This document shows, piece after piece, positions 3,288 to 8,145 of a stretch of 32,023 nt of DNA. Each line of letters opens with the position of its first letter. Position 1 is the stretch's first letter. The notes beneath the pieces were generated by a model. It was not told where the DNA came from. It worked only from the letters and a program-made list of their open reading frames with translations, and made no database searches. Origin of the DNA: Pseudomonadota bacterium (GTDB taxonomy: Bacteria; Pseudomonadota; Gammaproteobacteria; Steroidobacterales; Steroidobacteraceae); the NCBI GenBank assembly GCA_947453225.1, contig CANGFV010000013.1, forward strand, positions 1-32,023, in the 5' to 3' direction. Position numbers and translations under genes: made by a program.

Positions 3288-4001
3288 TCAACCGCATTTA
3301 CTGTCGCCACAGTTCAGGCAAGTCATGCAGCCATCCATCATGATGACGGCCGTGGTGCTGCACTTGGCGCACATTTGTGCACCTTCAGGGAATACGCTCT
3401 TAGCAAAGGCATCTTCTTGCTTGTTACGCGCTTCGTATTCGGCCTTTTTCTCTTCGATGAGCTTTTTACGATGCTCATCCATTTCGGTTTTCTTTAGTAG
3501 CCCAATGAACTGCAAGTGACGCTCAATCACATGACCGAGCTCAGCAATAATGGAGGGCATGAAGCGACCACCTGCTTGCCAGTAGCCGCCACGCGGATCA
3601 AATACACCCTTCATTTCATCGACCAAGAAGGTGACATCGCCACCCTTACGAAACACTGCAGAAATAATGCGCGTTAACGCCACAATCCACTGAAAGTGGT
3701 CGAGGTTTTTGGTGTTAATGAAAATTTCAAACGGACGACGCTGCTCGTGTGGCGTACCTTCATTCAGGATCATGTCGTTAATGGTCACGTACATGGCGTG
3801 ATCTGACACTGGCGTCTTAATCTTATACGTCGAGCCAATCAGCATGTCAGGACGTTCGAGCTTCTCGTGCATCCAAATCACGTTATCTTCCTGACGCGGT
3901 ACGGCAGCAACAGCCACCTTTTCTGCCGCCGCTTTGGCCGCTGCGACATCTTCAGGTTTTTCTACGCGGTATTTAGAAATCTTTTTTTCAATAGTAATCA
4001 T
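3288..4001 (-). CDS. nrdJb: Class II ribonucleotide reductase, small C-terminal subunit NrdJb
   Basis: This 237-residue protein matches the detached C-terminal part of vitamin-B12-dependent ribonucleotide reductase, as in Pseudomonas, where nrdJ is encoded as nrdJa plus nrdJb. The central domain (about 40-165) contains the motifs EIFINTKN and GGDVTFLVDEMKGVFDP. The C-terminal 30 residues carry six Cys in the pattern CAKC...CMTCLNC...C, which is the region expected to hold the redox-active pair that re-reduces the active site and probably a zinc site. A Shine-Dalgarno AGGAAA precedes the ATG. The gap to the nrdJa stop is 23 bases, so the two genes are surely co-transcribed. Residues 18-37 are an Ala/Lys/Glu-rich linker. 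Confidence 0.9.
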   Translation of the reverse strand: MITIEKKISKYRVEKPEDVAAAKAAAEKVAVAAVPRQEDNVIWMHEKLERPDMLIGSTYKIKTPVSDHAMYVTINDMILNEGTPHEQRRPFEIFINTKNLDHFQWIVALTRIISAVFRKGGDVTFLVDEMKGVFDPRGGYWQAGGRFMPSIIAELGHVIERHLQFIGLLKKTEMDEHRKKLIEEKKAEYEARNKQEDAFAKSVFPEGAQMCAKCSTTAVIMMDGCMTCLNCGDSKCG

Positions 4002-4024: not shown

Positions 4025-6166
4025 TTAGAACTTGCCGTAATAGCCTTCTTTCAATGCATCAAACAAGTTGGCCGCAGTATGCGTTTCGCCGTCGTACTGC
4101 ACTTCTTCATCACCGCGCAGCTTGACTTCACTGCCGTCCTCGAGCGTGAACACATACGTCGTATTTTTCAGATCTTGCTCTTTCACCAACACGCCTTGGA
4201 AGGCTTCTGGATTAAAGCGGAAGGTAGTGCAACCTTTTAAGCCCTGCTCGTAGGCGTACAAGTAAATATCTTTGAAGTCTTCATACTTATAATCCGTCGG
4301 TACGTTGGCCGTCTTGGAAATGGATGAATCCACCCACAACTGTGATGCCGCCTGAATATCCACATGTTGTTTCGGCGTCACATCATCTGCGGTGGTGAAG
4401 TATTCCGGCAATTTCTCGTTGGCATTTTCCGAAAACGGCATGGCATTCGGATTGACCATTTCACGATAGGCCAGCAATTCGAACGAAAACACATCGACTT
4501 TCTCTTTGGTCTTTTTGCCTTCACGAATCACATTGCGGAAATAGTGATGCGCGAATGAAGGCTCAATACCATTAGACGCATTGTTGGCCAACGACAGAGA
4601 AATGGTGCCAGTGGGCGCAATAGAACTATGATGCGTGAAGCGTGCACCTACCTCGGCCAGCTCTTCTACCAACTCAGGCGCCGCTTCAGCGACGCGCTGC
4701 ATGTAGCGGCTATAGCGCGCATGCAAGACACGGCCACTGATTTGTTGACCTACACGCCAGCCATCACGAACCATTTCAGGACGCTTGCGTAACATTTCCT
4801 TAGTCACTTCAAAATCTTCCATCATGATCGGCGCTGGGCCTTTTTCACGTGCGAGCTCTAGAGCGGCTTCCCAACCAGCAAGCGCTAACTCACGCGAGAC
4901 ATTTTGCGTGAAGGCTACGGATTTCTTCGAGCCATACTGCATGCACAGCATGGTGATAGCTGAACCCAAGCCTAAGAAGCCCATACCATGACGACGCTTA
5001 CGCAGAATTTCATCGCGCTGCCCACCGAGTGGCAGACCGTTGATTTCGACTACGTTATCAAGCATGCGAGTGAATACCTTCACCACTTTACGGAATTCTT
5101 CCCAATCAAAACGGGCTTCATCGGTAAATGGATCCACCACAAACTTGGTCAGGTTAACAGAACCGAGCAGACATGACCCATAAGGCGGCAGCGGCTGCTC
5201 ACCACAAGGATTGGTCGCACGAATGTTCTCGCACCACCAGTTGTTGTTCATTTCATTGACCTTATCGATCAGCACGAAGCCGGGTTCGGCAAAATCGTAG
5301 GTGGAAGTCATGATGATGTCCCACAAACGCTTAGCGGGAATGCTCTTGAAAATCTGGCAACACACCAAACCTGATTCGTTTGTGATGTAACCTTGAGTGA
5401 CAGGCCACTCGCGCCAAACAAACTTTGAAGCGTCGCTCAAATCAACTGAATCGGCTTCTTTCAGCGACACCGGAAAGGCCAACTGCCAATCGGTATTATT
5501 TTTTACGGCCTGCATGAATTCATCGGTGATCAACAGCGACAGATTGAACTGACGCAAGCGCCCCGCCTCACGCTTAGCACGCACAAAATCGACCACATCC
5601 GGATGACCCACATCAAACGTACCCATTTGCGCACCGCGACGACCGCCAGCAGAAGAGACGGTAAAACACATCTTGTCGTAGATATCCATAAAGGACAGTG
5701 GGCCTGAAGTGTGCGCGCCAGCACCCGACACATAGGCGCCCTTGGGACGTAGCGTGGAAAATTCATAACCAATGCCGCAGCCAGCTTTGAGCGTTAAACC
5801 AGCTTCGTGCACTTTATTAAGGATGTCATCCATTGAGTCGGTGACAGTGCCGGACACTGTGCAATTAATCGTTGAAGTCGCTGGCTTGTGCGCTAACGAA
5901 CCTGCGTTAGACATGATACGGCCAGCTGGAATGGAGCCTTTACGTAACGCCCATAGAAACTGTTCATACCACTGCTCACGGGCTTCAGGCTGCTCTACAT
6001 CGGCTAACGCACGCGCTACGCGGCGATAAGTATCGTCCATAGATTGATCGACAGCGGTGCCATCTTTAGCAGTTAACCGATACTTTTTGTCCCAGATATC
6101 TAGCGAAGCGTCTTGGAACGGAATGGTGTTAACGTCCATAGGCTCCAACTTAATGGCAGTTTTCAT
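4025..6166 (-). CDS. nrdJa: Adenosylcobalamin-dependent ribonucleotide reductase, catalytic subunit NrdJa
   Basis: The 713-residue catalytic subunit of a class II ribonucleotide reductase reduces ribonucleotides to deoxyribonucleotides using an adenosylcobalamin-generated thiyl radical, so it is independent of oxygen. Diagnostic motifs are STINCTVSGT, with the substrate-site Cys102, and the radical-site signature NPCGEQPLPPYGSC (Asn319, Cys321, Glu323); TGTISLSLANNASNGIEPSF lies further on. The protein stops before the C-terminal Cys-rich region, which is supplied by nrdJb. I chose the ATG at 6166. A reading frame continues 21 codons further upstream, but through a 14-bp hairpin and with non-family residues. 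The Shine-Dalgarno is weak (GGAAAA). The gene is preceded by NrdR and DnaA boxes and a structured leader. Confidence 0.93.
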   Translation of the reverse strand: MKTAIKLEPMDVNTIPFQDASLDIWDKKYRLTAKDGTAVDQSMDDTYRRVARALADVEQPEAREQWYEQFLWALRKGSIPAGRIMSNAGSLAHKPATSTINCTVSGTVTDSMDDILNKVHEAGLTLKAGCGIGYEFSTLRPKGAYVSGAGAHTSGPLSFMDIYDKMCFTVSSAGGRRGAQMGTFDVGHPDVVDFVRAKREAGRLRQFNLSLLITDEFMQAVKNNTDWQLAFPVSLKEADSVDLSDASKFVWREWPVTQGYITNESGLVCCQIFKSIPAKRLWDIIMTSTYDFAEPGFVLIDKVNEMNNNWWCENIRATNPCGEQPLPPYGSCLLGSVNLTKFVVDPFTDEARFDWEEFRKVVKVFTRMLDNVVEINGLPLGGQRDEILRKRRHGMGFLGLGSAITMLCMQYGSKKSVAFTQNVSRELALAGWEAALELAREKGPAPIMMEDFEVTKEMLRKRPEMVRDGWRVGQQISGRVLHARYSRYMQRVAEAAPELVEELAEVGARFTHHSSIAPTGTISLSLANNASNGIEPSFAHHYFRNVIREGKKTKEKVDVFSFELLAYREMVNPNAMPFSENANEKLPEYFTTADDVTPKQHVDIQAASQLWVDSSISKTANVPTDYKYEDFKDIYLYAYEQGLKGCTTFRFNPEAFQGVLVKEQDLKNTTYVFTLEDGSEVKLRGDEEVQYDGETHTAANLFDALKEGYYGKF

Positions 6167-6203: not shown

Positions 6204-6242
6204 CAAGGCGGGCATTTCACTCCGGGCAAAATGCCCGCCTTG
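6204..6242 (-). promoter_or_regulatory. Strong leader hairpin with alternative fold, upstream of nrdJa
   Basis: CAAGGCGGGCATTT (6204-6217) pairs perfectly over 14 bp with AAATGCCCGCCTTG (6229-6242). The right arm can alternatively fold with the loop as CGGGCA-AAA-TGCCCG (6223-6237). These two helices are mutually exclusive. No T-run follows on either strand, so a simple terminator is unlikely. The element ends 37 bases before the nrdJa ATG, where it could influence translation, RNA stability or elongation. Confidence 0.55.
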
Positions 6243-6352: not shown

Positions 6353-6368
6353 ACACAAGATGTTGTGT
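6353..6368. promoter_or_regulatory. NrdR box at the nrdJ promoter
   Basis: The 16-mer ACACAAGATGTTGTGT matches the NrdR consensus (acaCwAtATaTwGtgt) at 14 of 16 positions and is palindromic except at two central-flank bases. It lies just downstream of the predicted minus-strand -10 element, overlapping the expected start region, which is the geometry for repression of nrdJ by the ATP/dATP-sensing repressor NrdR. Confidence 0.75.
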
Positions 6369-6379
6369 CAGGGAGCTAG

Positions 6380-6407
6380 ACTATGATGCGAAGCCAAAGT
6401 GCGTCAA
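6380..6407 (-). promoter_or_regulatory. Probable nrdJab promoter
   Basis: On the minus strand, TTGACG (6402-6407; five of six -35 matches) is separated by 16 bases from CATAGT (6380-6385; four of six -10 matches). Transcription would start near 6373, giving a leader of about 200 nt. The NrdR box at 6353-6368 lies immediately downstream. Confidence 0.5.
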
Positions 6408-6417
6408 GAGTTTGTAT

Positions 6418-6446
6418 TTGACTAAATATAGGTTACTTATAACAAT
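6418..6446 (+). promoter_or_regulatory. Possible divergent plus-strand promoter
   Basis: TTGACT (6418-6423) and AACAAT (6441-6446) are 17 bases apart on the plus strand in an AT-rich stretch. It could serve the protease gene at 6748, with a leader of about 300 bases containing the distal NrdR box and DnaA boxes. The -10 match is modest (four of six). Confidence 0.3.
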
Positions 6447-6528
6447 TAAAACAATGACTTGTGGGTTTATACGCAGGAATTTACCTAGAAAAAATGTTCT
6501 TATTGACAGCTCGGCTGATTTACGGCAA

Positions 6529-6544
6529 CCACAATATATTGTGT
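6529..6544. promoter_or_regulatory. Distal, near-perfect NrdR box
   Basis: CCACAATATATTGTGT matches the NrdR consensus at 15 of 16 positions. Its centre is 176 bases from the promoter-proximal box, far from the roughly 31-base spacing usual for paired NrdR boxes. It contains TATATT on both strands, so it may overlap a second minus-strand promoter for nrdJ or affect the divergent protease gene. Confidence 0.75.
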
Positions 6545-6558
6545 TTCACTAACAAATT

Positions 6559-6567
6559 TTTTGCACA
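6559..6567 (+). promoter_or_regulatory. DnaA box
   Basis: TTTTGCACA fits the DnaA-box consensus TTWTNCACA exactly. It lies 14 bases from the distal NrdR box and in the same orientation as the second DnaA box. DnaA control of ribonucleotide reductase genes is known, for example for E. coli nrdAB. Confidence 0.55.
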
Positions 6568-6580
6568 GCTCATACACGAC

Positions 6581-6589
6581 TTATCCACA
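6581..6589 (+). promoter_or_regulatory. Consensus DnaA box
   Basis: TTATCCACA is the canonical high-affinity DnaA box. It is 22 bases (about two helical turns) from the box at 6559, same orientation and so the same helical face. The pair lies about 400 bases upstream of nrdJa and 160 bases upstream of the protease gene. Confidence 0.65.
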
Positions 6590-6747
6590 GCACTCTCCAC
6601 ACCCTGAACGGGGTCAAGACTCAGTCCGCCGCCCTTCTCAGAATTAAATGTGCGTAACACTGCGGCGACTGATGAATTCTCGTGCCTAGAATCACCGCCA
6701 TTGCAAACCCTGCGTGTTTTTCTTACCTGAACGAGGTCAGTTTTATC

Positions 6748-8145
6748 ATGACAATCCGTCACTCCAGCTCCGCAAACCTAATGCCTAAGGTATTTGCCGG
6801 CCTGGCCAGCGTGTTGCTCGTCACCAGCACCTTAGCCATGGCACAACTTCCCGCTCAGGTTGGTTCTGCACCCCTACCCTCACTTGCGCCCATCATCAAA
6901 CGTACTTCACCTGCGGTGGTGGGCATTTCCGTTAAGGGCGCACAGCAACAACAAGTCAATCCGTTGATGCAAGATCCTTTTTTTCGGCGTTTTTTCGACT
7001 TTCCTGAACAGCAACAAGAACGTCAGTTCCAAGCCTCAGGCTCGGGTGTGATTATTGATGCACAGCAAGGCTACATTCTCACTAATGCGCATGTGGTGGA
7101 TAACGCCAAAGAAATCACCGTAACGCTACTCGACAATCGCGAATTAAAAGCCACCGTCAAAGGCACTGACAGACAATCAGATATTGCAGTGCTGCAAGTG
7201 AAAGGCACGAACCTGACTGAAATCGGTATTGCTGATTCAAGCAAAGTCCAAGTCGGTGACTTCGTCATTGCTATTGGTAATCCCTTTGGTCTTGAACATA
7301 CCGTCACCTCCGGCATTATCAGCGCATTAGGTCGCGCTACTGGCATGAGCCAAGATAGCTTTGAAGATCTCATTCAAACCGATGCGCCCATTAACCCCGG
7401 CAATTCAGGCGGTGCACTGATTGATCTAAATGGTCAACTGGTCGGTATTAATTCCTCTATTTTTTCCGGTAATGGCGGCAATATCGGTATTGGCTTTGCG
7501 GTGCCTTCCAACATGGCAAAAGCTGTGATGGATCAATTGGTGAAATACGGCAAAGTGCAACGCGGCTTGCTAGGCGTGAGCATCACCAACCTCACGGCAG
7601 ACATCGCAGCAAGCCAAGGCACCACTGAAACACAAGGCGCATTTGTTTCAGAAGTCTCTGAAAACTCCGCCGCAGAAAAGGCCGGCATCAAAGCAGGCGA
7701 CATTATCACTGGCATCAACGGTAAACCGGTTAAAACCAGTTCCGCATTGCGCGCCGCCATCGGTGTGCTGCGCGTCGGTGAGAAAGTAGAAGTCAGCCTA
7801 GTGCGTGAGGGCAAACCACGCAAAGTAACTGCTACCATCGCTGAAGGTGCAGACAGCACCGTCGCCGCAGACACTGGCAATAACGGTAACAAATCTAACG
7901 GCACACATCAGGGCTTACGCGGCGCTGAATTGAGCAATAACACCGGCGGTGGCGTCTTGGTCAGCAGCGTCACCGAAGGCAGCAACGCCGCTCAAAATGG
8001 CCTGCAACGTAACGATGTCATCACGGCCGTAGGTCGTACGCGCGTCAACAGCATCAAAGAATTGCAAGACGCCACCAAAAACTTGAATGCTTTCACCTTG
8101 ATGATTCAACGCGGCAATCGCACGTTATTTGCGGTGATCCGCTAA
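6748..8145 (+). CDS. Periplasmic HtrA/Do-family serine protease
   Basis: A 465-residue DegP/DegQ-type protease and chaperone for misfolded envelope proteins. The signal peptide covers about 1-32, cleaving after AMA. The trypsin-like domain carries the triad His115 (TNAHVVD), Asp145 (SDIAVL) and Ser220 (NPGNSGGAL). Two PDZ domains follow at about 255-345 and 375-460. A Ser/Gly/Asn-rich stretch (about 368-380) links them. The Phe/Gln-rich segment near 75-95 corresponds to the LA loop and is short, which favours DegQ or the MucD-like group over E. coli DegP. I chose the ATG at 6748, with GAGG upstream, because it gives a normal signal peptide; a longer frame from 6682 and an internal ATG at 6781 exist. 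It is followed by a strong terminator. Confidence 0.9.
   Translation: MTIRHSSSANLMPKVFAGLASVLLVTSTLAMAQLPAQVGSAPLPSLAPIIKRTSPAVVGISVKGAQQQQVNPLMQDPFFRRFFDFPEQQQERQFQASGSGVIIDAQQGYILTNAHVVDNAKEITVTLLDNRELKATVKGTDRQSDIAVLQVKGTNLTEIGIADSSKVQVGDFVIAIGNPFGLEHTVTSGIISALGRATGMSQDSFEDLIQTDAPINPGNSGGALIDLNGQLVGINSSIFSGNGGNIGIGFAVPSNMAKAVMDQLVKYGKVQRGLLGVSITNLTADIAASQGTTETQGAFVSEVSENSAAEKAGIKAGDIITGINGKPVKTSSALRAAIGVLRVGEKVEVSLVREGKPRKVTATIAEGADSTVAADTGNNGNKSNGTHQGLRGAELSNNTGGGVLVSSVTEGSNAAQNGLQRNDVITAVGRTRVNSIKELQDATKNLNAFTLMIQRGNRTLFAVIR

Follow-up and report, generated by a model that had tools for sequence, protein, structure and literature searches.

The region upstream of nrdJ in the window, the 32,023-nucleotide stretch of DNA analysed here, is quite probably a long-range NrdR repression operator in which a loop bent by IHF would shut off nrdJ, as judged by comparison with related sequences. 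The first-pass annotation had offered looping as one of three explanations for two widely spaced NrdR boxes, and the putative loop is strongly supported by the conservation of their spacing, its helical phasing and a central IHF site.

The nrdJ gene (nrdJa), which encodes the large chain of a class II ribonucleotide reductase, lies on the reverse strand at 4025–6166 (Pfam PF02867, E 1.9e-129). It is the single PF02867 match in the 96%-complete genome, in a search that covers large subunits of the class I/II type. The listed open reading frame reaches further, to a TTG at 6229; since the homologues begin at residue 22, the conserved ATG at 6164–6166 is the more likely translation start. On the same strand, at 3288–4001, a TSCPD-domain protein (PF12637, E 1.3e-9) forms the second part of a split class II reductase and is nrdJb-like; P. 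aeruginosa has such a split enzyme, NrdJab. The divergent neighbour, an htrA/degQ-type serine protease (6748–8145, forward strand; PF13365 and PDZ domains), lies outside the regulatory device, and nrdR was found in the same genome. The nrdJ leader carries an inverted repeat (GGCGGGCATTT...AAATGCCCGCC, 6207–6239) a little before the start codon, and no Rfam family credibly matched the leader when a riboswitch or other known RNA was sought. In the genomes G085, G097, G106, G110, G001 and others, the nrdJ matches are split near residue 340, within open frames of 1020–1236 aa; these are probably inteins.

The proximal NrdR box (ACACAAGATGTTGTGT, 6353–6368) follows closely on the predicted nrdJ transcription start, and the distal box (CCACAATATATTGTGT, 6529–6544) lies 176 bp upstream of the proximal one, start to start, leaving 160 bp between the two. 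Both boxes, as well as the two strong DnaA boxes described below, were confirmed exactly where the first-pass annotation had placed them. With a matrix derived from relatives, whose training loci were mostly from the window's own order, the proximal and distal boxes scored 25.8 and 25.1, respectively; a score above 13 occurs in shuffled sequence about 0.007 times per kb. Boxes with no or one mismatch are very few in the 1.86-Mb genome, the nrdJ pair being among them, and the other one-mismatch matches are scattered. The region resembles the canonical NrdR operator of the E. coli, Streptomyces, Listeria and Streptococcus reductase promoters: two 16-bp palindromes precede a reductase gene, nrdR is encoded in the genome, the proximal box is at the promoter of the reductase gene, and the box centres are integer turns apart. 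However, the canonical boxes are separated by 3 or 4 turns (a gap of 14–17 or 24–27 bp), outside which the window pair falls, whereas the wide pairs at nrdJ span about 13–18 turns. Furthermore, both boxes of the wide pair are of strong consensus, and a conserved IHF site lies between them, unlike in the canonical operator. In the NrdR structures, a tetramer sits on two boxes three turns apart, with the DNA sharply kinked (PMC9110341, PMC12051234).

The first-pass annotation had proposed a comparison of this gap across relatives, and in that comparison the wide pair proved to be kept. When 172 non-identical regions upstream of nrdJ, most of them from the window's own order, were scanned with the matrix, two strong boxes 159–193 bp apart were detected in 136. 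The spacing of these pairs varied with a standard deviation of 5.5 bp, versus 41 bp for the distance between the proximal box and the start codon. Three upstream regions (L020, L021 and L098) retain a strong proximal box and a decayed distal one (CCACAACATATAGACA), still 177–178 bp away, and possibly represent a lineage that is losing the loop. Outside the order, a census of nrdJ upstream regions from the Gammaproteobacteria genome set described below, extended with exact-pattern matches, found wide pairs in 71 of 137 loci from 40 gammaproteobacterial families; a few of these pairs, such as those at 131, 147 and 211 bp, may have arisen by chance.

An unbiased class-wide scan of 369 Gammaproteobacteria genomes with the exact NrdR pattern yielded pairs at 159–189 bp in 42 genomes, at 128–158 bp in seven (every one at 155 or 156 bp) and at 190–220 bp in one. 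The reversed-pattern control gave no pair in any of the scans of these genomes. Close exact-pattern pairs were detected in only six of the 369 genomes, a low count that is partly explained by the degenerate box usually present in a close pair. Of 41 wide-pair loci that were fetched, 40 adjoin nrdJ, and the remaining one is on a truncated contig.

Compared with a pair, a single box is bound by NrdR 530–1000 times more weakly, and NrdR favours pairs whose boxes are a whole number of turns apart (PMC12051234); joint binding is therefore the best explanation for two strong boxes that stand alone. Alternatively, each strong box could be half of an ordinary three-turn pair with a degenerate partner, so that the region would contain two conventional operators. 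This arrangement does exist: in Xanthomonadales, nrdJ has one strong box with a weak partner at 31–33 bp, and 27 of the 38 single-box loci combine a strong box with a degenerate partner 30–33 bp away, which is the usual close design. In the 169 wide loci, however, no partner was detected at 31–33 or 41–42 bp on either side of either box, where the mean score equalled the background. Two conventional operators would also leave the central IHF site and the phased spacing unexplained, and we regard this alternative as highly improbable for the wide pairs. Across these loci, nrdJ therefore uses one of two designs, the wide pair or the usual close pair.

Within the order, the spacing has one dominant mode, mostly 175–182 bp, a range too narrow to be informative about phasing, and the class-wide scans were performed for this reason. 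In the other families, most spacings group around 145, 155.5, 166.5, 177.5 and 188.5 bp, and few fall in between. When one value was taken for each of 39 families outside the order and periods of 7–15 bp were scanned, the best period was 10.5–10.7 bp, with p-values of 0.0003–0.002 under uniform, smoothed and normal nulls; these p-values are approximate, because the families share ancestry. The exact-pattern matches gave a best period of 10.9–11.1 bp. The 176 bp of the window correspond to 16.8 turns at 10.5 bp per turn. As a comparison of locus populations, the period of 10.5–11 bp across families agrees with the integer turns of the canonical operator, and, on the same purely comparative footing, the operator spacing is tied to the helical phase as in IHF-assisted loops.

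The nrdJ promoter is predicted on the reverse strand at 6380–6407, with a −35 element TTGACG (6402–6407) and a −10 element CATAGT (6380–6385). In most of the 169 loci a TTGAC −35 element is found 38–42 bp upstream of the start of the proximal box, often with a −10-like element 15–17 bp beyond it, and CTTGAC is present in 138 of the 169 spacers versus 6 expected. With these positions, the predicted nrdJ start site falls immediately upstream of the proximal box, and the promoter lies within the putative loop. It had also been suggested that the two boxes mark two nrdJ promoters, an idea that the single conserved −35 element does not support.

An IHF-like site on the forward strand (AAACAATGACTTG, 6449–6461), with one mismatch to WATCAANNNNTTR, would form the apex of the loop. 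It occupies the same place and orientation in the relatives and has an AT-rich flank at about 6418–6448. The spacers of the 169 loci contain 36 matches to the IHF consensus versus 1.6 expected, and a perfect site is present in 35 loci versus 1 after shuffling of the spacers. Nearly all of the perfect matches have one orientation and lie 92–96 or 82–84 bp upstream of the proximal box, in two adjacent helical positions, adjoining an AT-rich stretch near the midpoint between the NrdR boxes. With at most one mismatch allowed, 118 of the 169 loci have a site in the central zone, and about 30% are without one. Since ihfA and ihfB are both present in the window's genome, the region has what an IHF-assisted loop requires, a site at a fixed place between the operators and the genes for its protein, with one mismatch in the window's own site. 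A third HU/IHF-like gene (G000:C53:346-624) contains an in-frame TGA and is perhaps a pseudogene. For FNR-like sites, the excess was only weak. Intrinsic DNA curvature was considered as a loop helper and rejected, the spacer being barely above its shuffled versions (mean z 0.25).

The IHF site and the −35 element both lie at near-fixed distances upstream of the proximal box, as would be expected if the spacing were set by the IHF and promoter architecture, for example by IHF activation via an upstream arm, with the NrdR boxes riding along without bridging. However, both IHF-to-box arms vary across families mostly in steps of about one turn (proximal, 81–85 or 89–96 bp; distal, 72–75, 82–88 or 92–95 bp) and the distal box stays in phase, where a passenger box would drift. 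Moreover, the perfect IHF match is absent from the family without nrdR, described below. A spacing dictated by IHF and the promoter, with no role for NrdR bridging, thus seems quite unlikely, and a loop closed by NrdR is the preferred explanation of the phased arms.

The remaining proposal of the first-pass annotation, NrdR control of the divergent htrA, was not borne out. More generally, the boxes could be independent sites, the proximal one serving nrdJ and the distal one htrA or a second nrdJ promoter. In favour of this, the two genes diverge from the intergenic region that contains the distal box, some 200 bp separate the box from htrA, and most loci of the order have htrA next to nrdJ. 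Outside the order, however, htrA is found in only about a third of the wide-pair loci, and wide pairs persist with hsp20 or cbpA in its place. In addition, the distal box shows no conserved promoter that would read towards htrA, away from nrdJ. Independent sites would not keep a helical phase, and NrdR binds single boxes very poorly (PMC12051234). Conversely, family f12 of the order retains htrA beside nrdJ and lacks nrdR and both boxes. Independent action of the two boxes is therefore, in our judgement, very improbable, and joint binding across the spacer is retained as the preferred reading.

The f12 loci are without both NrdR boxes, the perfect IHF match and the DnaA box, and nrdR is absent from all eight f12 genomes (G060, G012, G050, G068, G038, G026, G075 and G086), while it is present in eight of eight genomes tested from the other families of the order. 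In f12 as a whole, nrdR and the NrdR boxes at nrdJ have thus been lost together, providing a natural nrdR-minus lineage. The divergent neighbours other than htrA were hsp20 in L103, L121, L138, L151, L175 and L189, and cbpA/dnaJ-like in L192, L196 and L197. The neighbour is thus repeatedly a protein-quality-control gene (of the htrA, hsp20 or cbpA type), which suggests a conserved association.

Upstream of the distal NrdR box, two strong DnaA boxes lie on the forward strand at 6559–6567 (TTTTGCACA) and 6581–6589 (TTATCCACA), 22 bp apart. Between them, a degenerate box (TCATACACG, 6570–6578, forward strand), with 6 of the 8 specified positions, completes a register of 2-bp gaps; the 2-bp gap in the window depends on this weak middle box, and a similar 9-mer occurs at its offset in the same-genus relative L090. 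A possible fourth, weak box (CTCTCCACA, 6593–6601, forward strand) follows after a 3-bp gap. By number alone, two such 9-mers are not unusual (2 in 32 kb versus 3.4 expected), and their weight comes from their conservation in relatives, not from the count. Within 60 bp on the upstream side of the distal NrdR box, the 136 loci contain 46 perfect DnaA boxes versus 0.44 expected, and the reversed pattern gave 1. Perfect boxes are found there in 38 of the 136 loci, and boxes with at most one mismatch in 78 (order and sampled relatives), nearly all on the same strand. Neighbouring boxes are 11–12 bp apart in 29 of 44 pairs and 22–23 bp apart in 10 of 44, corresponding to 9-mers with gaps of 2–3 bp. 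They lie at about −14, −25, −36, −47 and −58 from the distal NrdR box, and this regularity indicates that the array is phased to that box as well. The array is also kept where the neighbour is not htrA. In L218, L219 and L220 (family f143), a DnaA box lies inside the loop, 26 bp from the start of the distal NrdR box, in the orientation opposite to that of the order's array.

E. coli DnaA requires same-strand boxes with gaps of 2–3 bp (PMC11317965), the spacing seen across these loci. Such boxes are found near the reductase promoters of E. coli nrdAB and nrdDG (PMC11317965, PMC8203912), and DnaA can both activate and repress nrdAB (PMC8203912). The array might accordingly be the main device, acting like the DnaA double box of E. 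coli nrdA, with NrdR secondary. However, the array, which much of the order has kept, is weak or absent in several families there and rare elsewhere, whereas the NrdR pair is general; furthermore, it lies about 190–230 bp upstream of the proximal box, away from the promoter. In contrast to the E. coli arrays, it stands beside a class II nrdJ, is phased to a distal NrdR box and belongs mainly to one order. A primary role for DnaA is thus extremely improbable. The DnaA link drawn in the first-pass annotation stands as far as the conserved tandem same-strand array is concerned, and does not extend to the core of the device: present in only part of the clade, the array is best regarded as an add-on to the NrdR operator.

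A repression loop is the simplest reading of two strong NrdR boxes that stand alone, are locked in phase and enclose both an IHF site and a promoter. The sites, their co-conservation, their helical phasing, the lack of close partner boxes and the joint absence of boxes and nrdR were seen directly in the sequences, and from them we infer the following steps. At high dATP, NrdR carrying both ATP and dATP would bind the distal and proximal boxes jointly and, as a tetramer or a larger form, bridge them. The intervening DNA would then form a loop of about 17 helical turns, its apex bent by bound IHF. With the promoter inside the closed loop and the proximal box just past the start site, nrdJ would be off. 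When dATP falls, the oligomeric state of NrdR would change, releasing the DNA so that nrdJ could be made. In the window's clade, the tandem array that adjoins the distal NrdR box on its upstream side probably allows DnaA to assemble there and tune this promoter to the replication cycle.

Architecturally assisted repression loops are known from the lac, gal and ara systems, as are IHF- or HU-assisted loops. The nrdJ region shares with them two distant operators that are in phase on the helix and have a promoter between them, and a site for a DNA-bending protein where the apex would be. Unlike in the lac, gal and ara loops, the bridging protein at nrdJ would be NrdR, a dATP/ATP sensor that is not known to loop DNA, and the loop would control dNTP synthesis.

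The published survey of NrdR spacing considered spacers of up to 50 nt only (PMC12051234), and the wide pairs were invisible to it because its pattern stopped at that distance. Each element is known by itself: NrdR boxes, IHF-assisted loops and, at reductase promoters, DnaA boxes. No description of the combination of NrdR, DnaA and an IHF loop was found in the literature searched; an earlier remark on distant nrdJ boxes is possible, the original NrdR-box description of 2005 and many subscription papers being outside the search.

More tentatively, and with somewhat less than even confidence, we propose that these loci represent a second, long-range mode of NrdR action: dATP-loaded NrdR would close an IHF-bent loop of 13–18 turns at nrdJ in dozens of gammaproteobacterial families, and in the window's order a DnaA filament on the phased array beside the distal box would open or stabilise the loop, so that one promoter would read both the dATP level and the state of replication initiation. 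Current models confine NrdR to boxes separated by three or four turns and treat isolated boxes as unusable. The arrangement is directly testable, with the natural spacing variants at hand and the natural nrdR-minus family as a control. A real loop would mean that NrdR does control many nrdJ promoters to which a single NrdR site or none has been assigned, and would make NrdR one of the few repressors that form loops. It would also link dNTP supply to nucleoid architecture, by way of IHF, and in one order to DnaA, the initiator of replication.
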